This document shows, piece after piece, positions 45,035-60,913 of a stretch of 64,000 nucleotides of DNA (within the stretch, counting starts at the first letter, position 1; the number at the start of each line of letters is the position of its first letter). The stretch is from positions 682,001-746,000 of the forward strand of contig JAHBVX010000002.1 of assembly GCA_019637295.1 (NCBI GenBank), read 5' to 3'. Below the pieces are notes generated by a model. The model did no database searches, was not told the DNA's origin, and worked only from the letters and a program-made list of their open reading frames with translations. Origin of the DNA: Polyangiaceae bacterium. GTDB lineage: Bacteria; Myxococcota_A; Polyangia; Polyangiales; Polyangiaceae. The position numbers were made by a program, and so were the translations under genes.

Positions 45035-46561
45035 TCAATTCGATGGCCAGCAGGTGGCTACCGGCGCGCCCCCCGGTCCGGGCACCTGGGCGCCCACGCA
45101 CTTCTGATACAGCGGGCTCCCGCCGCTGGCGACCGCCGAGCCGCCATAGCAGACGCCGCTCAGGCCGCCGGGCGTCTGCGGGCAACCCCCGCCGATGCAG
45201 TACACCTGCTGCTGCACCGGCAGTCCGGTGCAGTCGCAGGAAGCGCTCAGGTCGACGCAGTACCGCTCCTTCGACAGGCTGCTCTCCAAGCACAGTCCCC
45301 CGGGGCAGTCCGCGTCGTCTCCGCACGGTTCGCAGCCCTTGCCCGTTCCCTTGCAGCTGCCGAAGCGGTGCGCGCAGGTGGCGACGCCCAGGGCCGTGTC
45401 CCACACGCCGCAAGCGCTCGCGTAGCCCCAAGGGCAGGCGTTGCTCACGTTCATGTTGCACAGGGAGGTGCACATCTTGACGCCGTCCTTGCCCTTGGCA
45501 CACACGCGGTTGGCGATGCCGAGGCAGTCCGCGTCCGTCTCGCACTCGCTGCAGTAGTCCCGCTTGCGGCACAGGTTACGCAGCAGGGTGATAGGACCGC
45601 AGGAGTACTCCTTGCCGGGTCCGATGTTGGCCGCGGGCACGCAGTTGCTGGTGCCCGTGGGTACGCCGGGGCAGGTGTCCGCGCAGGGCGGGCGGCTGGT
45701 TCGCACCGAGGCGCACGAGTAGCCCGTTGCACAGTCCGTGTCCGCCTGACAGTTCGTCTTGGTGCAGTAAGCGTCCACGTCTCCCGGGCCGGCGCCGAGG
45801 CACACGAAGCCGCTCGCGTCGTCGCAGGTGGTGCCCTCGTCCAGCACCCCGGAGCAGCCCGTGCCGTACTGGCCCTCGGGGTAGGTCGTGCCCTTGACGC
45901 ACGCCGTGGTAGCTCCGCCGCCGGCGAGCTGGCCGGGCTGGCACAAGCCGACGCTCGCGCAGTCGTCGTGGGTGCTGCAGCCCGCGAGGCGGCACTCCGC
46001 GTCCACGCAACGGTAGCCGCCTGCCTGATCGCACTCTTGGCTGGTGCTGCACGCGGTGTAGCGACCCGGAGGTGGGTCTTCGGACGGCACGCACCCGCCA
46101 TTGCCCGTCGAGCCGAGCTTGCAGTAGCCGATGCCGACGCACTCCGAGTGCTTCTTGCACGGCACCTGGCACGTCGAGTCGACGCACTCGAAGCCCCGCG
46201 CCTGGTCGCACTCTTCGTTGGTCGCACAGTCCTCGTACTGACCAATCCGGCCGTTCTTGGCGAATTCGGGCGTGTAGCAGTACTCACCCTGAGTGCCATC
46301 TTCGGCGATGAGGCCGTGGCAGTTCTGCCCCAGCGGACAGTCTCCCTGGGTCACGCACGGCGCGGCGCACTCGTTCTGAAAGCAGACACTGCCCGACACC
46401 AAGCAGGCCGACTTCTTGCAGATCGCCGTGCACTTGCCGTCCACGATCTTGCCCTCGCACTCCTCACTGGAGCAGCCCAGGGGCAGGCCCAGCACGAGGA
46501 GCGCGGTGAGGAGCAGGCCGCGCGCGCAGCGAGTGAGTGGAGCAAGGTGCAAGAGTTTCAT
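45035..46561 (-). CDS. Very cysteine-rich surface lipoprotein
   Basis: This 508-residue protein has a lipoprotein signal ending LPLGC (Cys30). By my count about 60 cysteines occur in the whole protein, mostly paired in modules of about 45-50 residues such as YEDCATNEECDQARGFEC, YTACSTSQECDQAGGYRC and YGTGCSGVLDEG. Segments YPEGQYG and related RIGQYED match the YPAGPYG motif at the N-termini of neighbouring redoxins. It should be a rigid, disulfide-bonded extracellular protein. No enzyme domain is seen. It is divergent from the redoxin gene at 46727, which has a shared promoter region of 165 bases. The function is unknown. Confidence 0.78.
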   Translation of the reverse strand: MKLLHLAPLTRCARGLLLTALLVLGLPLGCSSEECEGKIVDGKCTAICKKSACLVSGSVCFQNECAAPCVTQGDCPLGQNCHGLIAEDGTQGEYCYTPEFAKNGRIGQYEDCATNEECDQARGFECVDSTCQVPCKKHSECVGIGYCKLGSTGNGGCVPSEDPPPGRYTACSTSQECDQAGGYRCVDAECRLAGCSTHDDCASVGLCQPGQLAGGGATTACVKGTTYPEGQYGTGCSGVLDEGTTCDDASGFVCLGAGPGDVDAYCTKTNCQADTDCATGYSCASVRTSRPPCADTCPGVPTGTSNCVPAANIGPGKEYSCGPITLLRNLCRKRDYCSECETDADCLGIANRVCAKGKDGVKMCTSLCNMNVSNACPWGYASACGVWDTALGVATCAHRFGSCKGTGKGCEPCGDDADCPGGLCLESSLSKERYCVDLSASCDCTGLPVQQQVYCIGGGCPQTPGGLSGVCYGGSAVASGGSPLYQKCVGAQVPGPGGAPVATCWPSN

Positions 46562-46662
46562 GGTTTCCTCGAACGGTCCCGCGTCCAGCCGCCGGAGCGG
46601 TGCCTCATACCCGGGCTTTCGGGCCGAGGAAAGGGGCCCCGTTGCCCGGGGGTCGGGTTGCC

Positions 46663-46690
46663 TTGACCCCAGGGCGCGGACGACTAAGCT
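46663..46690 (+). promoter_or_regulatory. Candidate promoter of the redoxin gene
   Basis: TTGACC (46663-46668) is followed after 16 bases by TAAGCT (46685-46690). The -35 matches five of six consensus bases; the -10 matches three. The start of the redoxin ATG at 46727 is 36 bases further. The site lies in the divergent region facing the cysteine-rich lipoprotein. Evidence is weak in a GC-rich genome. Confidence 0.3.
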
Positions 46691-46726
46691 CTCCAGGGTC
46701 TAGCATCGCCCGGGAGACGTGCAGCC

Positions 46727-47413
46727 ATGCGAACCGCAATCGTTGGGATTTCTGCTCTGGTGTGTCTGGCCGCAACGGCGTGCGGGAGCGAACCCGCCCA
46801 GGAGCGACCGTACTTCAAGGGCGCCGAGCCGGCGGGCACCTCCACCGCGACGGATCCCGGTTACGAGCCGCCGTTCGAGGCCAGAGAGTACCCCGCAGGC
46901 CCCTACGGCACGCGTCCCGGCGCCGTGATCGAGAACCTCAAGTTCTCCGGTTGGAAGAAGCCCGCCGAGGTGGAGTGGGCCACCGAGGCCTTCGAGCCGA
47001 TTCAGCTCGCCGATTTCTATGATCCCGACGGCACCAAGGGCAACCGCTACATCATGCTCAACGCCTCGGCGGTGTGGTGCAGCGCGTGCCGATCCGAGTA
47101 CACGTCGTTCAAGAACGAAGGGACCTACGCTCAGTATCGCGCGCGCGGCGTCGAGTTCCTGTGCGTCATCCTCGAAGACAACTCGAACCCGCCCAAGCCG
47201 AGCAAACCCGCGGACCTGCAGACCTGGGGCAAGTGGTTCGACGTGGAGTTCCCGATGCTGCTCGATCCCGGCGCGAAGATGGGCGCGTACTACGGCGCCA
47301 ACGCATTCCCCATGAACATGCTCATCGACGCCAAGACGATGACCATCGTGGGCGAGTTCGGTGGCAACATGCCTGCCATGTTCATTCAGCTCGAGCAGCT
47401 GCTGAACCAGTGA
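46727..47413 (+). CDS. Redoxin-domain lipoprotein, CSAC type
   Basis: This 228-residue protein has a lipoprotein signal with Cys19 (LAATAC). YPAGPYG at 55-61 precedes a thioredoxin-fold domain (about 90-225) with WCSAC at 117-121 as the active site and the cis-Pro region NAFPMNMLI. The fold suggests an envelope-attached disulfide oxidoreductase with a substrate in the periplasm or on the cell surface. It is a paralogue of the CNPC protein at 49898: both have LADFYDP/LSDFYNP and LLLNA or IMLNA before the CxxC. TlpA follows after 7 bases. A divergent cysteine-rich lipoprotein is the most likely physiological context. Confidence 0.82.
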   Translation: MRTAIVGISALVCLAATACGSEPAQERPYFKGAEPAGTSTATDPGYEPPFEAREYPAGPYGTRPGAVIENLKFSGWKKPAEVEWATEAFEPIQLADFYDPDGTKGNRYIMLNASAVWCSACRSEYTSFKNEGTYAQYRARGVEFLCVILEDNSNPPKPSKPADLQTWGKWFDVEFPMLLDPGAKMGAYYGANAFPMNMLIDAKTMTIVGEFGGNMPAMFIQLEQLLNQ

Positions 47414-47420
47414 GCCACCG

Positions 47421-47981
47421 ATGATACCGGCTTCACTCGGCTGGCGTGCGGGCGCACTTTTGTCTTGTCTGCTGGCCGTCGGCTGCGGTGCAGCTCAGAG
47501 TACGGGAGCGGAGCCGAGCGCAGGGGGAGGGGGTCCGGCCGCTTCGTCCGGCGCCCGCCCCCCGGATTTCGAGCTGCCCACCCTGACTGGCGAGAACGTG
47601 CGCCTGAGTGATCATCTCGGCAAGGACGTCGTGCTCATCGACTTCTGGGCCACCTTCTGTGACCCGTGCCTGACGGCGATGCCGCACCTCGACGAGCTGT
47701 ACAAGAAGCACAAGTCGCAAGGGTTCCTGGTCCTCGGTGTGTCCATCGACGGACCGGACTCGATCGCCGAGGTCAAGACCACGGTGGCCAAGCTCGGCGT
47801 CTCCTTCCCGATCCTGCTCGATCAGGAGACGCGGGTCGTGAGCCTGTACAATCCGAAGACGAGCGCGCCCTACTCGGTGCTCATCGGCCGGGACGGCACG
47901 GTGCTCACCAAGAAGGAGGGCTACACGACGGGCGATGCGACCGCGGTCGATCGCGACGTGCTGGCCGCTCTCGCGAAGTGA
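47421..47981 (+). CDS. TlpA-like thioredoxin lipoprotein, CDPC type
   Basis: This 186-residue protein has a lipoprotein signal ending LAVGC (Cys22) and a Gly/Ala-rich linker. The TlpA/ResA-like thioredoxin domain starts near PPDFELPTL. The active site is CDPC at 80-83 in DFWATFCDPC, and the cis-Pro region is in SAPYSVLIG. Members reduce disulfides on cytochrome c, cupredoxins or other exported proteins. The gene is 7 bases downstream of the CSAC redoxin, so the two should be co-transcribed. It ends convergently 10 bases from the barrel gene. The paralogue at 60380 shares the CDPC site. Confidence 0.9.
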   Translation: MIPASLGWRAGALLSCLLAVGCGAAQSTGAEPSAGGGGPAASSGARPPDFELPTLTGENVRLSDHLGKDVVLIDFWATFCDPCLTAMPHLDELYKKHKSQGFLVLGVSIDGPDSIAEVKTTVAKLGVSFPILLDQETRVVSLYNPKTSAPYSVLIGRDGTVLTKKEGYTTGDATAVDRDVLAALAK

Positions 47982-47991
47982 GGCCGGGCGG

Positions 47992-49872
47992 CTAGAAGCG
48001 CACCGTCGCGTCGAGGCGCGCGCCCTCGAAGGGCGGGAAGATGCGGCAGACGCCGCCGACGCAGCGCAGCGAGCCTCGGCGTTGTCCGGCGAAGAGGCTC
48101 ACGCTGCTCGATTGAGTGACCTTGTACACGACTTGCCCGTTGAAGTAGGTGTCCGGGGTCAGCGGGCTCGTGTCGTACTCCACGCCGAAGGCGACCGACA
48201 GGTGGGGCGCCCAGTCGACCCCCGTGAGGTGTTGCCCCTCGAGCCAGGGGTCGTCCGCGCCGCCGAAGCTCTGCCGGCGGCGGCGGTGCCAGCCTTGCAT
48301 CTGGAGCGAGTAGGGTCCGCCCAGGGACCGGATGACGTCGTAGCGCGCATAGGCCTCCTGGTAGTACACGTTGGTCTCGCCGTAGGCGTCGGAGATCGTG
48401 CGCTCCGTCTCGTCCAGCCGCGCGCCTACGGTCACGTTCGCCCGACTCTTGCGGTCCCGAGTCGTCAGCTCGATGCCGCTGGCCACGTCCCACACGCGGT
48501 TGAGGTTGGCGTCGCTCGTGTCGCAGGCGTCGTTCGACACGGACTCGGCCCAGGTGTGGTAGCGCCCCACCCAGGCGAACACCACCTCCTGCTTGCCCAG
48601 CTCCACGTCGCCCTTGGCGCGGCCGCCGGTGACGCAGGTGTTGAAGCCCTCGAACTCGGTGTCGGTCCAGAACGCGGCCGCGGTCGGCGGCGCGCTGTAT
48701 TGCACGAGGGAGAACTCCCGCGCGCGGGAGAGGTCCACGTTCGCGCGCAGTGGAAAGAAGCGCCGGTAGTGCTTGCCTTCGACGCTGAGGGTGATCGGCT
48801 GGGCGATGATGGAGACGTTCGCGTACGCGGCGTGCCCCGGCTCGAGCAACTCCGCGTCGTCCTGCGGGCCGTCGAGCTTCTTGTTCTCCAGATCCTGAAC
48901 GGCGACCTCGAGGTAGCCGCTGCCCACTCCGCCGAAGTCGGGCACCTCGAGGGATTGGCTAGCGGTCAAGATCTGGTCGGCCTTGCGCACGAAGTCCAGG
49001 TTCAGCGGAGCTTGGCGCGAGAGGTAGGAGGCCTGGGTGCCGAACTTCAGTCCCTTGGGCGCGATCTCGATCTGCCCCGCCAGGATGCGGTCCGGAGCGT
49101 AGGTGGGGCGTGCCTGGACGAAGTCGGTCTCGACGGCTCGGGGCATGCCCGCCTCGGTGAGGCCGATCAGGCCCGGCGTGACCTCACTCGTGACCCCCAG
49201 GTAGCGGCCGCTAGTCTCGTCGATGCGTAGCGGGTTCATCACGCCGCCGAGGCCGGTCAGCCGGAGCCGCACCGAGCCCGCGTCGATGCGCCCAGTGACG
49301 CGCGCGCCGCGCACGGTGGTGTCGCTCGCGATCTCGTCCATCTTCCGGACGCTGAGCACGAAGCCGCGCCCGAGCTGCGCGTAGAAGTCGCCCACCACCG
49401 TCTCGACGACCCGGGTGTTGTAGCCGACGTAGTACTTCGCCGGGTACACCCAGTTGATGTAGCGGTTGGACAGCTCCTCGCCGGCAGACTGCACCTGCTG
49501 GCGGAAGTACAGTGGCGGGGGCAGCCCGCCGGCCGGTGAGCCGCGCTCGAGCGTCATGTCCAGCGCGATCTGCGTCGGGTCCGGCGAGTGATAAAACCAA
49601 GCGTTGTCCACCCGCACGCCCGCCACGAAGCCTCGCCAGCTGCCCTGCAGGTTGAGCCGATTGTACCACATGCCCCAGTGATCGTTGGCGCGACTGGTGA
49701 CGTCGTTGGAGCGGTTGTCACGGTTGTCCACGTTGTAGACGACGCTGCTCGCGTTGGTCACGTCCACGTGTACGGCCTCGCCATCGATGCTGAAGGGCTC
49801 CACCGCGTGGGCGGTGAGCGGCGCGCTCGAGAGAGCCGCGAGCGACAGGAGGCGGACGGAGAGTCGAGGCAC
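47992..49872 (-). CDS. Barrel-like outer-membrane protein between redoxin genes
   Basis: This 626-residue protein has a signal peptide ending AHAVEP (about residue 23). The remainder is rich in alternating polar and hydrophobic residues and aromatic strands (WYNRLNLQGSWRGFVAGVRV in parts, NRYINWVYPAKYYVGYN, GDFYAQLGRGFVLSVRK), as in large beta-barrels. The final residues LDATVRF end in Phe, the outer-membrane assembly signal. Short stretches (WYNRLNL, DFYAQLGRG) recall barrel proteins of unknown function in Bacteroidota, but no family is certain. It has four or so cysteines near the end (CVGGVCR). It lies downstream of the CNPC redoxin on the same strand (25-base gap) and faces TlpA. Confidence 0.72.
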   Translation of the reverse strand: MPRLSVRLLSLAALSSAPLTAHAVEPFSIDGEAVHVDVTNASSVVYNVDNRDNRSNDVTSRANDHWGMWYNRLNLQGSWRGFVAGVRVDNAWFYHSPDPTQIALDMTLERGSPAGGLPPPLYFRQQVQSAGEELSNRYINWVYPAKYYVGYNTRVVETVVGDFYAQLGRGFVLSVRKMDEIASDTTVRGARVTGRIDAGSVRLRLTGLGGVMNPLRIDETSGRYLGVTSEVTPGLIGLTEAGMPRAVETDFVQARPTYAPDRILAGQIEIAPKGLKFGTQASYLSRQAPLNLDFVRKADQILTASQSLEVPDFGGVGSGYLEVAVQDLENKKLDGPQDDAELLEPGHAAYANVSIIAQPITLSVEGKHYRRFFPLRANVDLSRAREFSLVQYSAPPTAAAFWTDTEFEGFNTCVTGGRAKGDVELGKQEVVFAWVGRYHTWAESVSNDACDTSDANLNRVWDVASGIELTTRDRKSRANVTVGARLDETERTISDAYGETNVYYQEAYARYDVIRSLGGPYSLQMQGWHRRRRQSFGGADDPWLEGQHLTGVDWAPHLSVAFGVEYDTSPLTPDTYFNGQVVYKVTQSSSVSLFAGQRRGSLRCVGGVCRIFPPFEGARLDATVRF

Positions 49873-49897
49873 GGCGGCGCGCGTGCCACGCTACTGA

Positions 49898-50554
49898 CTA
49901 CTGGGCGCGCGCGTCCAGCTCGGCCTTGACCGTGGGCCAGATCGCCGCCGGATCCCCGGTGACCCGCGCCAGGATCTTCATGCTGCGGAGGTCGATGAGC
50001 ACGTTGATGGGCAGGCCACCGATGGTGCCGTAGCGCTGCATCTGGAAGTCCGCGTCGAGCCCCATCGGGAAGCGCGTCTCGTAGGCTTGGGTCCAAGCTC
50101 CCAGATCCGCCGGGGTGGCCGTGTCCCCCTTGGCGTTCTCGATCAGCAGGGCCAGCAGCCGGAAGCCCTTGGGGGACAGCTCGTCGAAGTGATCGTTCAG
50201 GGATGGGCTCGAGGCGCTGCCGCCGTGCTCCGCCTTGCAGGGGTTGCACCACATGGCGCCAGCGTTGAGCAAGAGCAGCTCGCCGTCGGTGCCGCCAGTC
50301 GGATTGTAGAAATCCGACAGGCTCGCGGGCGCGAGCGCGGCGGCGTCGTGTCCCTGCGCGGTGGGGTTGGTCCACACCTGCGGAAACAGGAAGTTCTCCG
50401 CGACCTCGCCTTTGTCCTTGCCGTAGGGGCCGGCGGGATAGGTGCCGGAGCCACCGTTGCCGCCGGTGGCGAGCAGCTCCGGCGGGATCTCGGGGCGGTT
50501 GCTGCCGCAGGCCGTAGCCGCGACGAACAAGACCAAGGCGAGGGATCGGGTCAC
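49898..50554 (-). CDS. Redoxin-domain lipoprotein, CNPC type
   Basis: The GTG at 50554 overlaps the stop of the Gly-rich lipoprotein gene (GTGA), giving 218 residues. A lipoprotein signal ends ATAC (Cys16). YPAGPYG lies at 39-45 and the active site WCNPC at 102-106. The cis-Pro loop is in IGGLPINVLI. The layout matches the CSAC redoxin at 46727 almost segment by segment. It is an envelope thiol-disulfide protein whose substrate is unknown. It is coupled upstream to the Gly/Ser-rich lipoprotein and followed by the barrel gene, so the three may form one operon. Confidence 0.82.
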   Translation of the reverse strand: MTRSLALVLFVAATACGSNRPEIPPELLATGGNGGSGTYPAGPYGKDKGEVAENFLFPQVWTNPTAQGHDAAALAPASLSDFYNPTGGTDGELLLLNAGAMWCNPCKAEHGGSASSPSLNDHFDELSPKGFRLLALLIENAKGDTATPADLGAWTQAYETRFPMGLDADFQMQRYGTIGGLPINVLIDLRSMKILARVTGDPAAIWPTVKAELDARAQ

Positions 50555-51534
50555 GGCTTCAGTCGCACTCCGTAGGTGCCGAGCAGCGGGACGCCTTGAC
50601 CCGGGACCGTCTCGATGTTGCTCCCGTCGGCGCTCACTTTGGCGTCGCTCACCTTCGCCCAGCCACCATAGGGGGCCCACTCTTCTTCGACCTTGACGCC
50701 GTGCAGCCAGAGCTCGACGTCCGCGCCCGCAGCGAGGTTGCCGCTGTTGTCGAGCACGAGCGTTGCCTTGGGACAGAACGACGTGTCCGTCGGCGTGGTG
50801 GCTACCAGCCACGCGAACCCGAGGGATGCATCCACCGCGTCGGGAGCCTTGTCGCTGGGGATTTCCACGGCGCGGAACCGGCGCTCCTCGGCCGTGACGA
50901 ACTCGAACTCGAACTTCATGACCGTGCCCGGCTCGAGCTTGATGCGTGCGGGGCCGTTGGCCGCTTCGGCGCCGGCGACGAGGGGCTGCCCAGCGGAGAA
51001 GGGTGGGAACTTGGCGGTGGACTGCTCGCCCACGTCGTAGCTGGTCTGCCCCGGCGGCAGCAACAGCGCGAACTTCGCGACGCTCAGCCCGAGGCCATAC
51101 TTGAAGGCGGGCTTCTTCAGCGCGAAGCCCGGCGCGATGCCGGTCTTGCACACGCCCACCGGTCCAGACTCGCAGGTGACCACGTCCCCGGCGGCGTTGG
51201 TCGTGCCCAGCTCCGAGCAGATGTCGACGCCGCACACCGTGGTCTGCACGTCCGCGAGCGGGTTGCCGTCGAGATCGATCACCTTGCCGTCGAACAAGTC
51301 GACGTGAGCTGGCGGGGTATTGTCGTGGTAGCCCGGACCCTTGTCGCAGCTGGGTCCGCCGCCGGACCCGCCGGACCCGCCGGACGATCCGCCGGCGCCG
51401 CCGGAAGCGCCGCTGCCCGCGCCCCCACCCGCGCCGCCACTGCCGCCGGCGGCTGGATTGTCGTCCGAGCCGCAGGCCAGGGCTCCGGCCGACGAGACCA
51501 GCAAGAGCGCGCCCAGGGAAAGCATCCTCGTCAT
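50551..51534 (-). CDS. Gly/Ser-rich surface lipoprotein
   Basis: From the ATG at 51534 the protein has 327 residues, with a lipoprotein signal ending GALAC (Cys21). An upstream ATG at 51591 overlaps the stop of the Uma2 gene (ATGA) but would place 19 unsuitable residues before the signal. After the lipid site comes a long Gly/Ser/Ala repeat (about 25-60) and then a carboxypeptidase-regulatory-like beta module (GKVIDLDGNPLADVQTTVCG). A large beta-rich domain without a recognised family fills the rest. Cysteines are few and pair in the module (CGVDICSEL). Its GTGA coupling to the CNPC redoxin suggests shared function. Confidence 0.7.
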   Translation of the reverse strand: MTRMLSLGALLLVSSAGALACGSDDNPAAGGSGGAGGGAGSGASGGAGGSSGGSGGSGGGPSCDKGPGYHDNTPPAHVDLFDGKVIDLDGNPLADVQTTVCGVDICSELGTTNAAGDVVTCESGPVGVCKTGIAPGFALKKPAFKYGLGLSVAKFALLLPPGQTSYDVGEQSTAKFPPFSAGQPLVAGAEAANGPARIKLEPGTVMKFEFEFVTAEERRFRAVEIPSDKAPDAVDASLGFAWLVATTPTDTSFCPKATLVLDNSGNLAAGADVELWLHGVKVEEEWAPYGGWAKVSDAKVSADGSNIETVPGQGVPLLGTYGVRLKP

Positions 51535-51587: not shown

Positions 51588-52424
51588 TCATCGTCGATTG
51601 CTCTCGAGCTCGCTCAAGCGCCGCTCGAGCTCCGCCAGGCGAGCCTCGGCCGCTTGCCTGGCCGCGCGCTCGGCTTCCTTCTCGGCGCGCTCGGCTTCCT
51701 TTGCGGCGCGCTCGGCTTCCTTCTCGGCGCGCTCGGCCTCCTTCTCGGCGCGCTCGGCTTCCTTCTCGGCGCGCTCGGCTTCCTTCTCGGCGCGCTCGGC
51801 TTCCTCGTGGGTGAGCCAGACGTGCTCACCGGCGCGGTCGTCGGTGATGCGGATTGGGTCGGCCCAGAGCCAGGCGTCGATGGCCTCCGAGAAGAAGGGG
51901 CCGGCGCCGAAGTGCATCCGCTCGAGGGCGCCGTCACGCACGACCCACTGCTGGATCGCGACGGGCCCGCCCAGCGAGCGCGGACCAACGAGCTCCGGAT
52001 CGAGCACCCAGAGCTCGCCGATGCCCGAGGCGGCATACTTCTCGTGGATGTCCTTGTAGTCCTTGTACGGATGATTCTTGCTCACCACCTCGATGGCGAG
52101 GCGGGGCACGGTGTGGCCGGGCTTCCACGAGCACAAGCTCGAGAGCTGCGCCGCGTTCGGCGGGGCAGGCTCGACGAGCGCCACGTCGGGATCGATGCCC
52201 ACCCGAGGGTCGTCCTCGTACCAACGCACGGCGAGGTTGCGGGTGACGATGGCGTCGAGGCAGCTCCGTGCCGCCCAAGCCTCGAGCAAGAGCACCAGGT
52301 AGCGCAGCAGCAGATCGTGGGGGCGAGACTCGGGCACGTGGATCTCCGGCAAGACCCACGCTTCAGCCGCGGCCCGCACCTCGTAGCGCAGGGCTACGAC
52401 CGCTCGGGTGTCACTCATGGTCAT
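51588..52424 (-). CDS. Uma2-family (DUF820) protein with coiled-coil tail
   Basis: From the ATG at 52424 the protein has 278 residues. Residues 10-200 show the Uma2 restriction-endonuclease-like fold: Asp in IDPDVALVE and IEVVSKNHPYKD with a following Lys and KYAASGIGELWVLDPE, the usual metal and catalytic region. Its function is unproven in general. A tail of seven-residue repeats (AERAEKE, about seven copies) then forms a predicted coiled coil of nearly 50 residues, encoded by the 21-base tandem repeat. The extension is not part of the family core. It overlaps the reading start region of the next lipoprotein. Confidence 0.8.
   Translation of the reverse strand: MTMSDTRAVVALRYEVRAAAEAWVLPEIHVPESRPHDLLLRYLVLLLEAWAARSCLDAIVTRNLAVRWYEDDPRVGIDPDVALVEPAPPNAAQLSSLCSWKPGHTVPRLAIEVVSKNHPYKDYKDIHEKYAASGIGELWVLDPELVGPRSLGGPVAIQQWVVRDGALERMHFGAGPFFSEAIDAWLWADPIRITDDRAGEHVWLTHEEAERAEKEAERAEKEAERAEKEAERAEKEAERAAKEAERAEKEAERAARQAAEARLAELERRLSELESNRR
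51664..51810. repeat. 21-base tandem repeat coding heptads
   Basis: Seven tandem copies of a 21-base unit (GCGCGCTCGGCTTCCTTCTCG split here as GCGCGCTCGGC + TTCCTTCTCG on the plus strand) lie inside the Uma2 gene. Most copies are identical or differ by one or two bases; the last diverges at its end. Each unit codes one AERAEKE heptad, so copy-number change alters the coiled-coil length without a frameshift. Confidence 0.9.
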
Positions 52425-52557
52425 CAGTGTAGCTCGCGTAGGACGGGCGCGGCGCAGGCGTTGCCGCAGCGGCTCTGCGTTGCATGGCGTGTGCCTCTGG
52501 AGGAACCCTCGAATTCTCGGCAATTCCCGCCGATCGGGGGCCGGCGGCCGGCGGCGG

Positions 52558-55323: not shown

Positions 55324-57441
55324 TCAGAAGAGCACGCCCATGTACCAGCGGAGGATCTGCGCGGTGGAGGTGTCTCCCGCGCCGCTGTCCCGCAGCGTCT
55401 CGACCAGGCGGTTCTGTTCTTGGGTCTGGTAGCCGAGCCCGCCGAGGGGGAACAACACGCCGTACTGCAGGCTGGTGAAGAAGCCGCCCATCTTGTCCGG
55501 GTCGTCGTTGAGGGCGCCGTCCTTGGCTTGATAGTAGAGCTGCAGGTTCAGCTCGATGCCCAGATCGCGCTTGTGGCCGGGGGTCTGTACGAACTGGCTG
55601 GCGCGGGTCCAGATGGCCGCGAAGCCGCCGCCGAAGCGTTGCCCCGATACGTTGCGCAGGAAGTCGTAGTCCACGCTGGGGCGGAAGTAGTAGCTGCCCT
55701 GAACGCGGGTGAGCAAGTTGCGGTTCAGGATCAGGTCCACCTTGTAGTTCGGGTGGAAGCGGAAGGTGGAGAAGGTGCGCTCGCCAGCGTTGGGCAGCAG
55801 CTCGTCTTGACCGGGCGCGGTGCGCGAGAAGTCGCCGTCCCCCGAGGCCCAACCGTGCATGAAGCCGAGCTTCAAGCGATCCTCCACCAGCTTCTGCTCG
55901 AGCTCGAGAGCGTAGCCGTACTGGCGCAGCTTCCAGCCGTTGTCCCCGGTGGGGTTGACGTAGTTGCTGCCATTCGACAGCGTGTTCTCGATCGAGCCCT
56001 GGATGGTCACCGCCTCGAGCTCGAAGCGGAACTTCTTGTACAGGAGCTGCACCCACAGATCCGGGATCCAGGCGACGGCGCCGCGCCGCACGTAGCCCGG
56101 GGAGGCCGCGCCGGGTCCGCAGTTCAGCGCGGGAGCCACGTTGCAGCCGCCGCTGGTGTCGTTGGCGAGGAGCTGGCGGCGGTGCACCACGTACAGGCCC
56201 GTGTTCAGCACGACGTTGCCCTGGGCCAGCGCCAGCTTCGTGCGCTCCGCGCTCTTGCGTCGCGAAATCGCCAGCACGTACTGATCGACGTCGTCCAGCT
56301 GGGCCACGTCGTAGGGCTGCGCCTGCGGCATGCTGCGCGTCTCGCTGGTGGTGCCCTCGTTGGCGAAGTCCCAGGCGCCCGCGATGTACAGATCGATCGA
56401 CTGCAGACCGGTCACGAACAGGATGCGGTCCGCGGTGGTCTGGTAGTCGTCGTCGTGGCCGTCACCCGCGTTGGCGAGCAGGCCCAGGCCCCAGTGGCTG
56501 GGCATGCGGCCGAAGCGGAGCTGACCGACGGGCGTGAGGTACTCGGCCCACACGCGCTTGACCCGCACGCTGTCCCTCAGGCTGTTGTTGCCGTCGCTCG
56601 GCGGCACCTGCGAGGAGTCGAACGCGCCCAGCGGATAGTAGCCGGCGCGCTTGTTCACCGCGTAGCCACCGTCGGCGTTGGGTGAGTTGCTGAAGCCCTC
56701 CGGCGTCGAGCCCAGCACCAGGTTGTCGAGCAGGTCGATTTGGCTCATCACCCGCAGGTTGTCGGAGATGTGCAGCTCGGGGTTGAGGCGAAAGCGGATG
56801 TTCGCGCCTGCCTGCGTCTTGTTCTTGCAGGGGAAGCGCGCTTGCCGCGGATCATCGCTGTCGCCGATGCCGCCCTCGTCGGGCGTACACAGCGCGGGGC
56901 CGAAGGTCTGATCCCGACCCGTGTAGTGGTTGTCCGCGGGCATCGGCCAGATGGCCTGGTTGGGCGTGTCGATGCGCCCGAGCGAGAAGTTGTGGAACAG
57001 CTCCGCGCGCATGCGGAAGTAGCCGTGGATCTCGAAGATGGGGCGCGCGTGCGACCACCACTGCTCGGAGTAGACCTGGTCGCCGTCGCGCGCCTTCTGC
57101 TGCGCTTTGGCGTCGGCGGCCTTGGCGCGCTGTTGTTCGAGTGCCTTGGTGTCCGCGCCGGGCTGCGGCCACATGGGCATGGGGCCGAGGCCCGGCCCGG
57201 TGGGCCCCGCGGGTCCGGGCTTCGGCGACGGCTCCGCGGGTGGAGTCTCCTCCTCCTCCGCTTCCTCGGCTTCCTCCTCCGCTTCCTCGTCCGGCGCCGC
57301 TACGGGCTTGGCGGGAGCAGCAGGCTTGCCCGGCGCGGGTTTGGCGGGCGCAGGATTGGCCGGCGCGGGCTGTGCCCACGCCGATGAGGAGGAGATCCAG
57401 AGCGCAGAGAGCGCCACCCATACGCGAGTCGTCTTGAGCAT
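55324..57441 (-). CDS. TIGR04551-type outer-membrane protein
   Basis: This 705-residue protein has a signal peptide ending SAWAQ (about residue 24), then a Pro/Ala/Lys-rich segment and a Glu-rich stretch (50-65). The mature part opens with IFEIHGYFRMRAELFHNFSLG (in parts IFEIHGYFRMRAEL and FHNFSLG), the hallmark of the Myxococcota family TIGR04551. Barrel-like strands (GQLRFGRMPSHWGLGLLAN, YYFRPSVDYDF) fill the rest, ending RWYMGVLF with a terminal Phe. It is an outer-membrane barrel of unknown transport role. It is separated from the kinase upstream by 96 bases holding a direct repeat. Confidence 0.85.
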   Translation of the reverse strand: MLKTTRVWVALSALWISSSSAWAQPAPANPAPAKPAPGKPAAPAKPVAAPDEEAEEEAEEAEEEETPPAEPSPKPGPAGPTGPGLGPMPMWPQPGADTKALEQQRAKAADAKAQQKARDGDQVYSEQWWSHARPIFEIHGYFRMRAELFHNFSLGRIDTPNQAIWPMPADNHYTGRDQTFGPALCTPDEGGIGDSDDPRQARFPCKNKTQAGANIRFRLNPELHISDNLRVMSQIDLLDNLVLGSTPEGFSNSPNADGGYAVNKRAGYYPLGAFDSSQVPPSDGNNSLRDSVRVKRVWAEYLTPVGQLRFGRMPSHWGLGLLANAGDGHDDDYQTTADRILFVTGLQSIDLYIAGAWDFANEGTTSETRSMPQAQPYDVAQLDDVDQYVLAISRRKSAERTKLALAQGNVVLNTGLYVVHRRQLLANDTSGGCNVAPALNCGPGAASPGYVRRGAVAWIPDLWVQLLYKKFRFELEAVTIQGSIENTLSNGSNYVNPTGDNGWKLRQYGYALELEQKLVEDRLKLGFMHGWASGDGDFSRTAPGQDELLPNAGERTFSTFRFHPNYKVDLILNRNLLTRVQGSYYFRPSVDYDFLRNVSGQRFGGGFAAIWTRASQFVQTPGHKRDLGIELNLQLYYQAKDGALNDDPDKMGGFFTSLQYGVLFPLGGLGYQTQEQNRLVETLRDSGAGDTSTAQILRWYMGVLF

Positions 57442-58882: not shown

Positions 58883-60376
58883 ATGCGAAACACCTCCCGG
58901 CTCTCGTGTCTTGCTCTGAGCTCCCTGTTGGCGTCGGTGCTCGTCGTGCTCGCCGCCGGCGGGTCGGCGCATGCTCAGAGCGCGACGGAGAAGGAGTTCA
59001 GCGTACAGCGATTCAACCCAGCCCCGGGCCCGCGAAACTTCTTCACCACCCGCGGCGCGCGAACCGACGGTGAGATGGCGTGGAGTGCGGGGCTGTTCGC
59101 CAACTACTCGTACAAGCCGTTCGTGATCCGCAGCTGCCGCTCCGAAACCGACTGCGATGATCCGAACGCGTCGCGTCCGACCGACATCCCCGTGATCGAG
59201 AACATGGTGACGGCGGATCTGATGGGCACCCTCACCCCCATCCCCCGGCTGCAGCTCGGGCTGCGCGCCCCGATCACCTTCGCCAAGGGACAGGGCCTGA
59301 CGGATCGCGGCACCGCCGATCCGGATGGACTAGAGGCGTTCGGCCTGGGAGACGCCGAGCTCGAGGCCAAGGCGCGCCTGCATGGCGAGGTACGAGACAC
59401 CGTGGTGGCTGGCGCGGCGCTGTTCGTGACTGGACCCCTCGGCCGCGCGACCTCCAAGGGCAACTACATCGGCGACGCGGGGCCCACGGTGGGGATCCGC
59501 GGGATCTTCGACGGCGCCGAGGGCCCGTTCTCGTTCGGCGCCAACCTGGCGGCCGTCTATCGCAGTGAAGGTCGAGTCGGCTCCACCGCGCTGGGGCCCG
59601 AGTTCCGCTACGGGGTCGCCGGCGGCTTCGCCGCGAGCCCGACGCTGCGCCTGGTGGTCGATGGCTTCGGCGGCACCAAGTTCTCGGCCAAGAACGGCAC
59701 CAACTCGCTCGAGGCCAACGCTGGCGTGCAGATCCTGCCGCTCGACTCGCCGTTCGTGATCAGCGTCGGTGCCGGCACCGGCCTGGTACAGGGCGTCGGC
59801 GTGCCCGCGGTGCGTGGCTTCTTGGGTCTCACGTTCGTTCAAGAGATGAAGGACAGCGACGGCGATGGCATCCCGGATCACTCGGACAAGTGCCCGACCG
59901 AGCCCGAGGACAAAGACGGCTACCAAGACGCCGACGGCTGCCCGGACTACGACAACGACGGCGACACCATCAAGGACGAGCAGGACAAGTGCCCGAACGA
60001 GCCGGAGGACTTCGACGGCTTCCAGGACTCGGATGGCTGCCCCGACAAGGACAACGACAAGGATGGCATCCCCGATGATCGGGACCAGTGCCCGGACAAG
60101 CCGGAGACCTTCAATGGCTTCCAGGACGCGGACGGCTGCCCGGACGAGCCCGATCGGGACGGCGACGGTGTCCCGGACTCCCGTGACAAGTGCCCGGACG
60201 AGCCCGAGGACACCGATGGCTTCCAGGATGAGGATGGCTGCCCGGATCCGGACAACGACGGCGACGGCATCCCGGACAATCAGGACGAGTGCATCGACGA
60301 GCCCGAGACCAAGAACGGCTACCAAGACGAGGATGGATGTCCCGACGAGGTCCCTGGTAAACCCAAGAAGAAGTGA
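58883..60376 (+). CDS. Thrombospondin type-3 repeat outer-membrane protein
   Basis: This 497-residue protein has a signal peptide ending AHAQS (about residue 31). Residues 40-315 form a beta-barrel-like region (LMGTLTPIPRLQLGLRAPITF in parts). From about 322 to 490 come TSP3-type calcium-binding repeats: DSDGDGIPD, CPTEPEDKDGYQ, DNDGDTIKDEQDKCP and similar units, with about ten cysteines in the regular spacing of KCP and DGCPD. A C-terminal OmpA domain, which normally follows such repeats, is missing: the protein ends in PGKPKKK. It sits 3 bases before a TlpA-like gene, so the two share a transcript. Confidence 0.85.
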   Translation: MRNTSRLSCLALSSLLASVLVVLAAGGSAHAQSATEKEFSVQRFNPAPGPRNFFTTRGARTDGEMAWSAGLFANYSYKPFVIRSCRSETDCDDPNASRPTDIPVIENMVTADLMGTLTPIPRLQLGLRAPITFAKGQGLTDRGTADPDGLEAFGLGDAELEAKARLHGEVRDTVVAGAALFVTGPLGRATSKGNYIGDAGPTVGIRGIFDGAEGPFSFGANLAAVYRSEGRVGSTALGPEFRYGVAGGFAASPTLRLVVDGFGGTKFSAKNGTNSLEANAGVQILPLDSPFVISVGAGTGLVQGVGVPAVRGFLGLTFVQEMKDSDGDGIPDHSDKCPTEPEDKDGYQDADGCPDYDNDGDTIKDEQDKCPNEPEDFDGFQDSDGCPDKDNDKDGIPDDRDQCPDKPETFNGFQDADGCPDEPDRDGDGVPDSRDKCPDEPEDTDGFQDEDGCPDPDNDGDGIPDNQDECIDEPETKNGYQDEDGCPDEVPGKPKKK

Positions 60377-60379
60377 CCC

Positions 60380-60913
60380 ATGACGCAGATGGCCGTGTGT
60401 GCAGTGCTCTCGCTCGCCCTCCTGGCGGGCTGCAGCGGTGGCGGGCTGGGATCCGGCGGCGCTTCGCTGGGCGACAGCGACCACCCGCTCGCGGGAGCCA
60501 AGGCGCCCGAGTTCGATCTGGCCGCTCAGTCCGGCGGCGCTCGCGCGTCACTCGCGGCGCACGCGGGCAAGATCGTGATCGTGGACTTCTGGGCGACCTG
60601 GTGCGATCCGTGCCGAGACTCCTTTCCGCACTACCAGCGGATGGTGGAGCAGCATGGGGGCAAGCTCGTGGTGCTGGGGCTGAGCACGGACGACGACCCG
60701 GACGGGATACCGGCGTTCGCCAAGGAAACCGGCGCCAAGTTTCCGCTCGCGTGGGATGACGGCCAGACGGTTGCCCGGCAGTACTCGCCGCCCACCATGC
60801 CCACGAGCTACGTCGTGGACGGCAACGGCATCGTCCGCTTCGTCCACGTTGGATTCCGCTCCGGCGACGAGACCGTGCTCGCACAGCAGGTGTCGTCCCT
60901 GCTCGCGGACTAG
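60380..60913 (+). CDS. TlpA-like thioredoxin lipoprotein beside TSP3 protein
   Basis: This 177-residue protein has a lipoprotein signal ending LLAGC (Cys18) and a Gly/Ser-rich linker. The thioredoxin-like domain starts at APEFDLAAQ, with WCDPC at 74-78 as the active site and the cis-Pro region PPTMPTSYVV. It should act on disulfides outside the cytoplasm. It follows the TSP3 gene by 3 bases, so the natural client could be the cysteine pairs of the repeats. It resembles the CDPC protein at 47421. Confidence 0.9.
   Translation: MTQMAVCAVLSLALLAGCSGGGLGSGGASLGDSDHPLAGAKAPEFDLAAQSGGARASLAAHAGKIVIVDFWATWCDPCRDSFPHYQRMVEQHGGKLVVLGLSTDDDPDGIPAFAKETGAKFPLAWDDGQTVARQYSPPTMPTSYVVDGNGIVRFVHVGFRSGDETVLAQQVSSLLAD

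Follow-up and report, generated by a model that had tools for sequence, protein, structure and literature searches.

In a window of 64,000 nucleotides from a Polyangiaceae bacterium (GenBank assembly GCA_019637295.1, contig JAHBVX010000002.1, positions 682,001 to 746,000; the whole stretch of DNA analyzed here, to which all window coordinates refer), six neighboring genes encode three redoxin lipoproteins, a DUF6029 outer-membrane beta-barrel, a Cys-rich lipoprotein, and a Gly/Ser-rich lipoprotein. The features of the cluster, with protein lengths in amino acids (aa), are as follows.

45035-46561, minus strand: Cys-rich lipoprotein of 508 aa, with lipobox PLGC30 and a further 60 Cys beyond the lipid-bearing one; oriented divergently to the CSAC redoxin
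46727-47413, plus strand: redoxin lipoprotein 1 (CSAC), 228 aa, with a YPAGPYG segment and its cis-Pro position at P195; AhpC-TSA match of 38 bits
47421-47981, plus strand: ResA/TlpA-like lipoprotein (CDPC), 186 aa, with the sequence WATFCDPC; AhpC-TSA match of 83 bits
47992-49872, minus strand: DUF6029 outer-membrane beta-barrel, 626 aa, GTG start, DUF6029 match of 50.6 bits, 24 predicted strands
48046-48063, minus strand: C-x-x-G-x-C of the barrel (C604, C609), located in the hairpin that joins strands 23 and 24
49898-50554, minus strand: redoxin lipoprotein 2 (CNPC), 218 aa, with a YPAGPYG segment; directly upstream of the barrel
50551-51534, minus strand: Gly/Ser-rich lipoprotein with C-x4-C (C120 and C125 of protein P0006); GTGA overlap with redoxin 2

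The initial annotation of this window had described three redoxin lipoproteins with different active sites close together, and all three are present within a span of 3.8 kb. The lipoprotein to which it had assigned about 60 Cys has 62 in total, comprising one in the signal peptide, the lipobox residue C30, and 60 thereafter. The GTGA overlap between the Gly/Ser-rich lipoprotein and one redoxin was located at 50551-50554, and the redoxin involved is CNPC; the 626-residue barrel is likewise present and is named here as Pfam family DUF6029 (PF19494; cut-off 27 bits).

We surveyed DUF6029 in 115 genomes of the window organism's order, 235 genomes across the phylum, and 14 control genomes. Within the order, the Pfam model identified the family in 54 genomes and a profile built in this analysis identified it in 66; across the phylum, the Pfam model matched 96 of 235 genomes. 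DUF6029 is common in Bacteroidota; no match was obtained in any of the 14 control genomes, among which was Bacteroides ihuae. Within the order, we examined 54 regions around DUF6029 matches in 53 other genomes, followed by 40 regions in 40 further genomes, drawn from 75 new matching genomes. A scan of named genomes with one narrow pattern, which hardly probes other phyla, matched 39 stretches; 31 were confirmed as loci, labeled Myxococcota, Myxococcales, Polyangiaceae, Deltaproteobacteria, proteobacteria, or "bacterium," and 13 of the 31 were dropped as duplicates. The final set for linkage counts comprised 112 non-redundant barrel loci and left out L042, in which the barrel fragment was too short.

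A redoxin gene lies ≤500 bp upstream of the barrel gene on the same strand in 104 of the 112 loci, counted by domain position with redoxin profiles built from these same loci. Among the remaining eight, the redoxin is downstream in one and within 5 kb in two, none was detected in four, and one ends at a contig boundary (L130). Counting by whole open frames gives a lower value (redoxin upstream in 92 of 111), which is too low because frames overlap, as shown for L052, L065, and L107. At least two redoxin genes occur within 5 kb in 82 of the 112 loci after overlapping matches were merged (84 unmerged, with one gene possibly counted twice). The clustering of redoxins exceeds chance: AhpC-TSA matches number 25 across the 7.65 Mb of the organism's own genome, and 104 of the 112 loci repeat the linkage. 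A real and widespread redoxin-barrel gene module is well established. The usual order in the window's family is Cys-rich lipoprotein, divergent from redoxin, TlpA, and barrel; in other lineages, TlpA may come after the barrel, or there may be a Gly/Ser lipoprotein ahead of the redoxin.

Co-occurrence was also counted across genomes of the order, which vary in completeness (64% for G070); Fisher tests of these counts are blind to relatedness and serve as a guide only. At E ≤ 1e-10, the YPxGPYG redoxin was identified in 83 of the 115 genomes, namely 65 of the 66 that are barrel-positive (the miss is G036) and 18 of the 49 that are barrel-negative. At E ≤ 1e-25, it remained in 62 barrel-positive versus 2 barrel-negative genomes (G008 and G070). 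The TlpA profile matched 104 of 115 genomes at E ≤ 1e-25, and therefore only its strong form is barrel-linked: at E ≤ 1e-50, it matched 59 of 66 barrel-positive versus 2 of 49 barrel-negative genomes (G055 and G070). Counts at E ≤ 1e-25 and 1e-50 were tallied by hand, and the strong TlpA match was kept in G015, G021, G056, and G064 though it lies on a different contig from the barrel.

The initial annotation had suggested checking whether the redoxins travel with the barrel and the Cys-rich lipoprotein, and had named relatives having redoxins without these proteins as evidence that would speak against its proposed system. Travel with the barrel holds phylum-wide, based on the linkage counts above. 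The Cys-rich family (E ≤ 1e-15) was identified in 31 of 66 barrel-positive versus 0 of 49 barrel-negative genomes of the order; within the window's family, the corresponding counts are 30 of 33 versus 0 of 7, so that travel with the Cys-rich lipoprotein holds there. In the order as a whole, fewer than half of the barrel-positive genomes (31 of 66) have a homolog; this lipoprotein is therefore no fixed member of the module, and the evidence named as speaking against the proposal, redoxins without it in relatives, is present for this protein. In at least three genomes (G022, G060, and G109), the Cys-rich/redoxin pair is on another contig than the barrel.

The CSAC and CDPC proteins score above the 26-bit cut-off of AhpC-TSA (PF00578). 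The CNPC redoxin scores just below it, at 24.1 bits, yet it is a paralog of the CSAC redoxin, with 29% identity and the YPAGPYG segment common to both; in the organism's own genome, these two are the only matches of their profile at E ≤ 1e-10 (26 of 146 candidates scored). The CDPC protein is ResA/TlpA-like and separate from this pair. Residues W117, C118, C121, E124, and P195 of the CSAC redoxin are invariant in a 17-row alignment, as are C80, P82, C83, and P150 of the CDPC protein in a 22-row alignment. Among PDB sequences, both YPxGPYG redoxins match a ResA chain best, and the proteins share with the ResA/TlpA/CcmG oxidoreductases a CxxC after Trp and the cis-Pro position. ResA and CcmG serve cytochrome c assembly. 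The redoxins described here differ in being lipoproteins encoded with an outer-membrane barrel, in the N-terminal YPxGPYG segment that many, though not all, of them have, and in a very variable CxxC. Membership in NCBIfam ResA (NF002854) was rejected, as the scores of 96.4, 37.8, and 31.1 bits compare with a required 170.

In a quick tree of 104 redoxins, the CNPC redoxin belongs to a 9-row clade with a Shimodaira-Hasegawa-like approximate likelihood-ratio (SH-aLRT) support of 98, and 8 of the 9 rows have a Gly/Ser lipoprotein upstream. The CSAC redoxin falls near this clade, among mostly Cys-rich-linked redoxins that form no strongly supported set. We infer that the two converging halves of the window may derive from an ancestral operon that was duplicated and then split in this lineage.

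Some relatives of these redoxins have an in-frame TGA at the active site. If TGA is read as selenocysteine (Sec, U), 11 of 15 stretches examined read UxxC (L164-L166 in the organism's own genome; L167, L168, L171-L175, and L177 in relatives), with WUGPC in L166. Some of the TGA-containing relatives carry the YPxGPYG segment, and the organism's own genome has a tRNA-Sec; selenoprotein members are thus likely among the redoxin relatives, judging from these reading frames. A second TlpA-like lipoprotein (177 aa, WATWCDPC) is encoded at window positions 60380-60913 on the plus strand, preceded almost without a gap by a protein rich in DxDGDGxxD repeats (58883-60376, plus strand). Besides the operon copy, an extra TlpA match lies 2 to 8 kb from the barrel in G038, G057, G076, and G113.

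The C-x-x-G-x-C motif occurs near the C-terminus in 93 of the 94 barrels checked, the exception (L052) being truncated by a contig end, and several barrels have no Cys besides it. Of the 54 barrels of the order, 37 also carry a second Cys pair (C413, C450). The AlphaFold2 model of the barrel, with a predicted local distance difference test score (pLDDT) of 79.5 and a predicted template modeling score (pTM) of 0.80, has 24 strands by count of the strand list. The strands occupy residues 35 to 625 of 626, and the longest gaps between them are <50 residues. Based on the 24 predicted strands, both termini would be periplasmic, and the hairpin between strands 23 and 24, with its C-x-x-G-x-C, would face outside. 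Foldseek analysis of the model placed TonB-type receptors and FimD on top, with Cir first; the copper transporter OprC was among the matches, and many unrelated barrels had similar E-values. A PDB sequence search identified no relative of the barrel, its one match being a ribosomal protein at E 1.3. The size and fold of the modeled barrel allow a pore but leave its cargo unspecified. A 705-residue protein elsewhere in the window (55324-57441, minus strand) appears barrel-like by eye and has no Pfam match at E ≤ 0.001.

One study reports that many of 28 Wzi-barrel homologs are similar to DUF6029 by HHpred, with a potential role in polysaccharide secretion (PMC9603273). At the loci described here, redoxins are instead the near-universal neighbors, and none of the 10 neighbor representatives scanned (from 30 neighbor clusters) matched a polysaccharide export, metal-efflux, or copper-enzyme family. 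Leaving aside the families of the redoxins themselves, five of the 10 scored above a cut-off, as a protein kinase, an Mrp-type ParA, a sigma-54 regulator, an F5/8 type C protein, and Ig-like domains fused to a redoxin.

The Cys-rich lipoprotein matched no Pfam or NCBIfam family above cut-off. Full disulfide pairing predicts an even number of Cys after the lipid Cys, and all 32 complete homologs have an even number (34 to 68), albeit not as 32 independent cases, given that many are close relatives. For this set, duplicates L153 and L162 were removed, L088 and L090 were dropped at contig ends (L090 would be odd, with 39), and the lipobox was reassigned by eye in L048, L049, L096, L155, and L159 and set for L094; the even counts of L094 and L096 hinge on this choice, as the alternative lipobox candidate of each makes the count odd. 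By script only, 31 are even and 3 odd among the 34 rows with a lipobox, and 2 of 36 rows have none. In related families, a different cluster of Cys-rich lipoproteins, encoded upstream of the redoxin, has even numbers in 7 of 7. A separate locus (L066, 3770-7081, minus strand) encodes a lipoprotein-like protein of 1104 residues with 189 cysteines, ~1.4 kb from the barrel of G048.

For the Gly/Ser-rich lipoprotein, searches of Pfam and NCBIfam to E 1 returned no family. Its residues C120 and C125 are invariant in a 10-row alignment and conserved at ≥90% in a 12-row alignment; its structure prediction is poor (pLDDT 47.8, pTM 0.40). The gene beyond it (51588-52523, minus strand) encodes a Uma2-family protein with a long EAERAEKEAERAEKEA-type C-terminal repeat.

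What is observed of the module is thus that its genes are linked and co-occur, that the CxxC and cis-Pro residues are intact, that the barrel has a near-invariant Cys pair, and that Cys counts in the Cys-rich family are even. The cluster suggests dedicated making or repair of disulfide bonds at the outer membrane, and on this sequence evidence the module is likely to take part in handling the disulfides of envelope proteins. Our best overall reading, to which we assign a probability of about 50%, is a conserved outer-membrane thiol-disulfide module whose redoxins would act on disulfides of the barrel and of neighboring lipoproteins. A ResA/TlpA-like lipoprotein and one or two YPxGPYG redoxin lipoproteins would be located on the outer membrane, the proposed site of the chemistry, beside the large DUF6029 barrel. 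There they would reduce or isomerize, rather than oxidize, the disulfide in the barrel's surface hairpin and the disulfides of disulfide-rich lipoproteins encoded alongside, with the barrel and the Cys-rich proteins as putative clients. With one match to DsbD_TM, one to VKOR, and 17 segments matching DSBA in the organism's own genome, both reducing and oxidizing supplies are plausible. Like the initial annotation, we infer a system for building or maintaining the disulfides of surface proteins. The barrel is a plausible redox partner of the redoxins, and its naming as a partner is the best-supported part of that first interpretation because of the near-invariant Cys pair that the barrel itself carries. 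The annotation had known of no described system of this composition, and we found no description of the module in the open-access literature, which leaves out most subscription papers.

Several points weigh against an outer-membrane thiol-disulfide module. The motif hairpin is modeled at low confidence (pLDDT <50 at residues 605-608), and its placement outside the cell was derived from the order of the strands. No redoxin was detected beside the barrel in L046, L055 (near a contig end), L122, and L128, and 35 of the order's 66 barrel-positive genomes yielded no member of the Cys-rich family. In a third Cys-rich cluster, of 16 loci, parity is mixed, with lipobox placement often unsure, and the genome searches of the order scored only part of each genome's candidates.

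Alternatively, the barrel could be a secretion pore through which the Cys-rich and Gly/Ser-rich lipoproteins reach the surface, with the redoxins holding cargo reduced before export or completing its folding afterwards; we regard this as possible but on balance unlikely. Its 24 predicted strands, as counted in the model, would match the size of FimD/PapC usher pores, which are among the top VIA-align rows (FimD pore: Z 18.4, root-mean-square deviation [rmsd] 5.7, 380 aligned), and surface-type proteins recur near the barrel in some lineages, including Cys-rich and Gly/Ser lipoproteins, F5/8 type C proteins, and the redoxin-Ig-like fusion. However, the OprD-like porin OccK3 ties with the ushers (Z 17.5, rmsd 5.9, 316 aligned), Foldseek places the TonB-type receptor Cir first, and the candidate cargo varies by lineage whereas the redoxins are constant. 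Ushers have plug, N-terminal, and C-terminal domains; the barrel model has neither an N- nor a C-terminal domain and no plug-sized insert.

A somewhat less probable explanation is that the redoxins act only in maturing the disulfide of the barrel itself, in the way that Dsb proteins act on LptD, with the Cys-rich lipoproteins as bystanders. DsbA/DsbC mature LptD, and the proposed service of redoxins to an outer-membrane barrel with important disulfides would be similar, except that here the redoxins are lipoproteins whose genes adjoin that of the barrel, and that the last hairpin holds the Cys pair. The redoxin-barrel pair is the sole near-universal part of the module, the C-x-x-G-x-C is the only Cys pair in several barrels, and LptD provides a precedent of an outer-membrane barrel whose disulfides matter and can control it (PMC10567701). 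Maturation of the barrel alone leaves unexplained the two or more redoxin genes at 82 of 112 loci and the co-occurrence of Cys-rich lipoprotein and barrel in the window's family.

More doubtful is a thiol relay across the outer membrane, in which reducing equivalents would pass from a periplasmic TlpA via the barrel to the surface C-x-x-G-x-C and then to surface redoxins and Cys-rich proteins. Such a relay, if real, would be the disulfide counterpart of porin-cytochrome conduits (MtrB-like), which have multiheme cytochrome partners (CxxCH). The cluster is not itself such a conduit, as its six proteins contain no CxxCH. It is improbable that the barrel serves as a passage for copper or another thiophilic metal moved by TlpA/Sco-like chemistry and the Cys pairs: copper centers can be served by TlpA-type proteins and OprC is among the Foldseek matches, but so are many unrelated barrels at similar E-values, the even Cys counts favor disulfides, and the 10 neighbor representatives scanned include no metal-efflux or copper-enzyme family.

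Disulfide chemistry in Gram-negative bacteria is usually located in the periplasm. If our reading of an outer-membrane thiol-disulfide module is true, this phylum-wide redoxin-barrel cluster would locate disulfide chemistry at the outer membrane and would assign a role to the DUF6029 family, and it would make the building and upkeep of very Cys-rich lipoproteins in Myxococcota testable.

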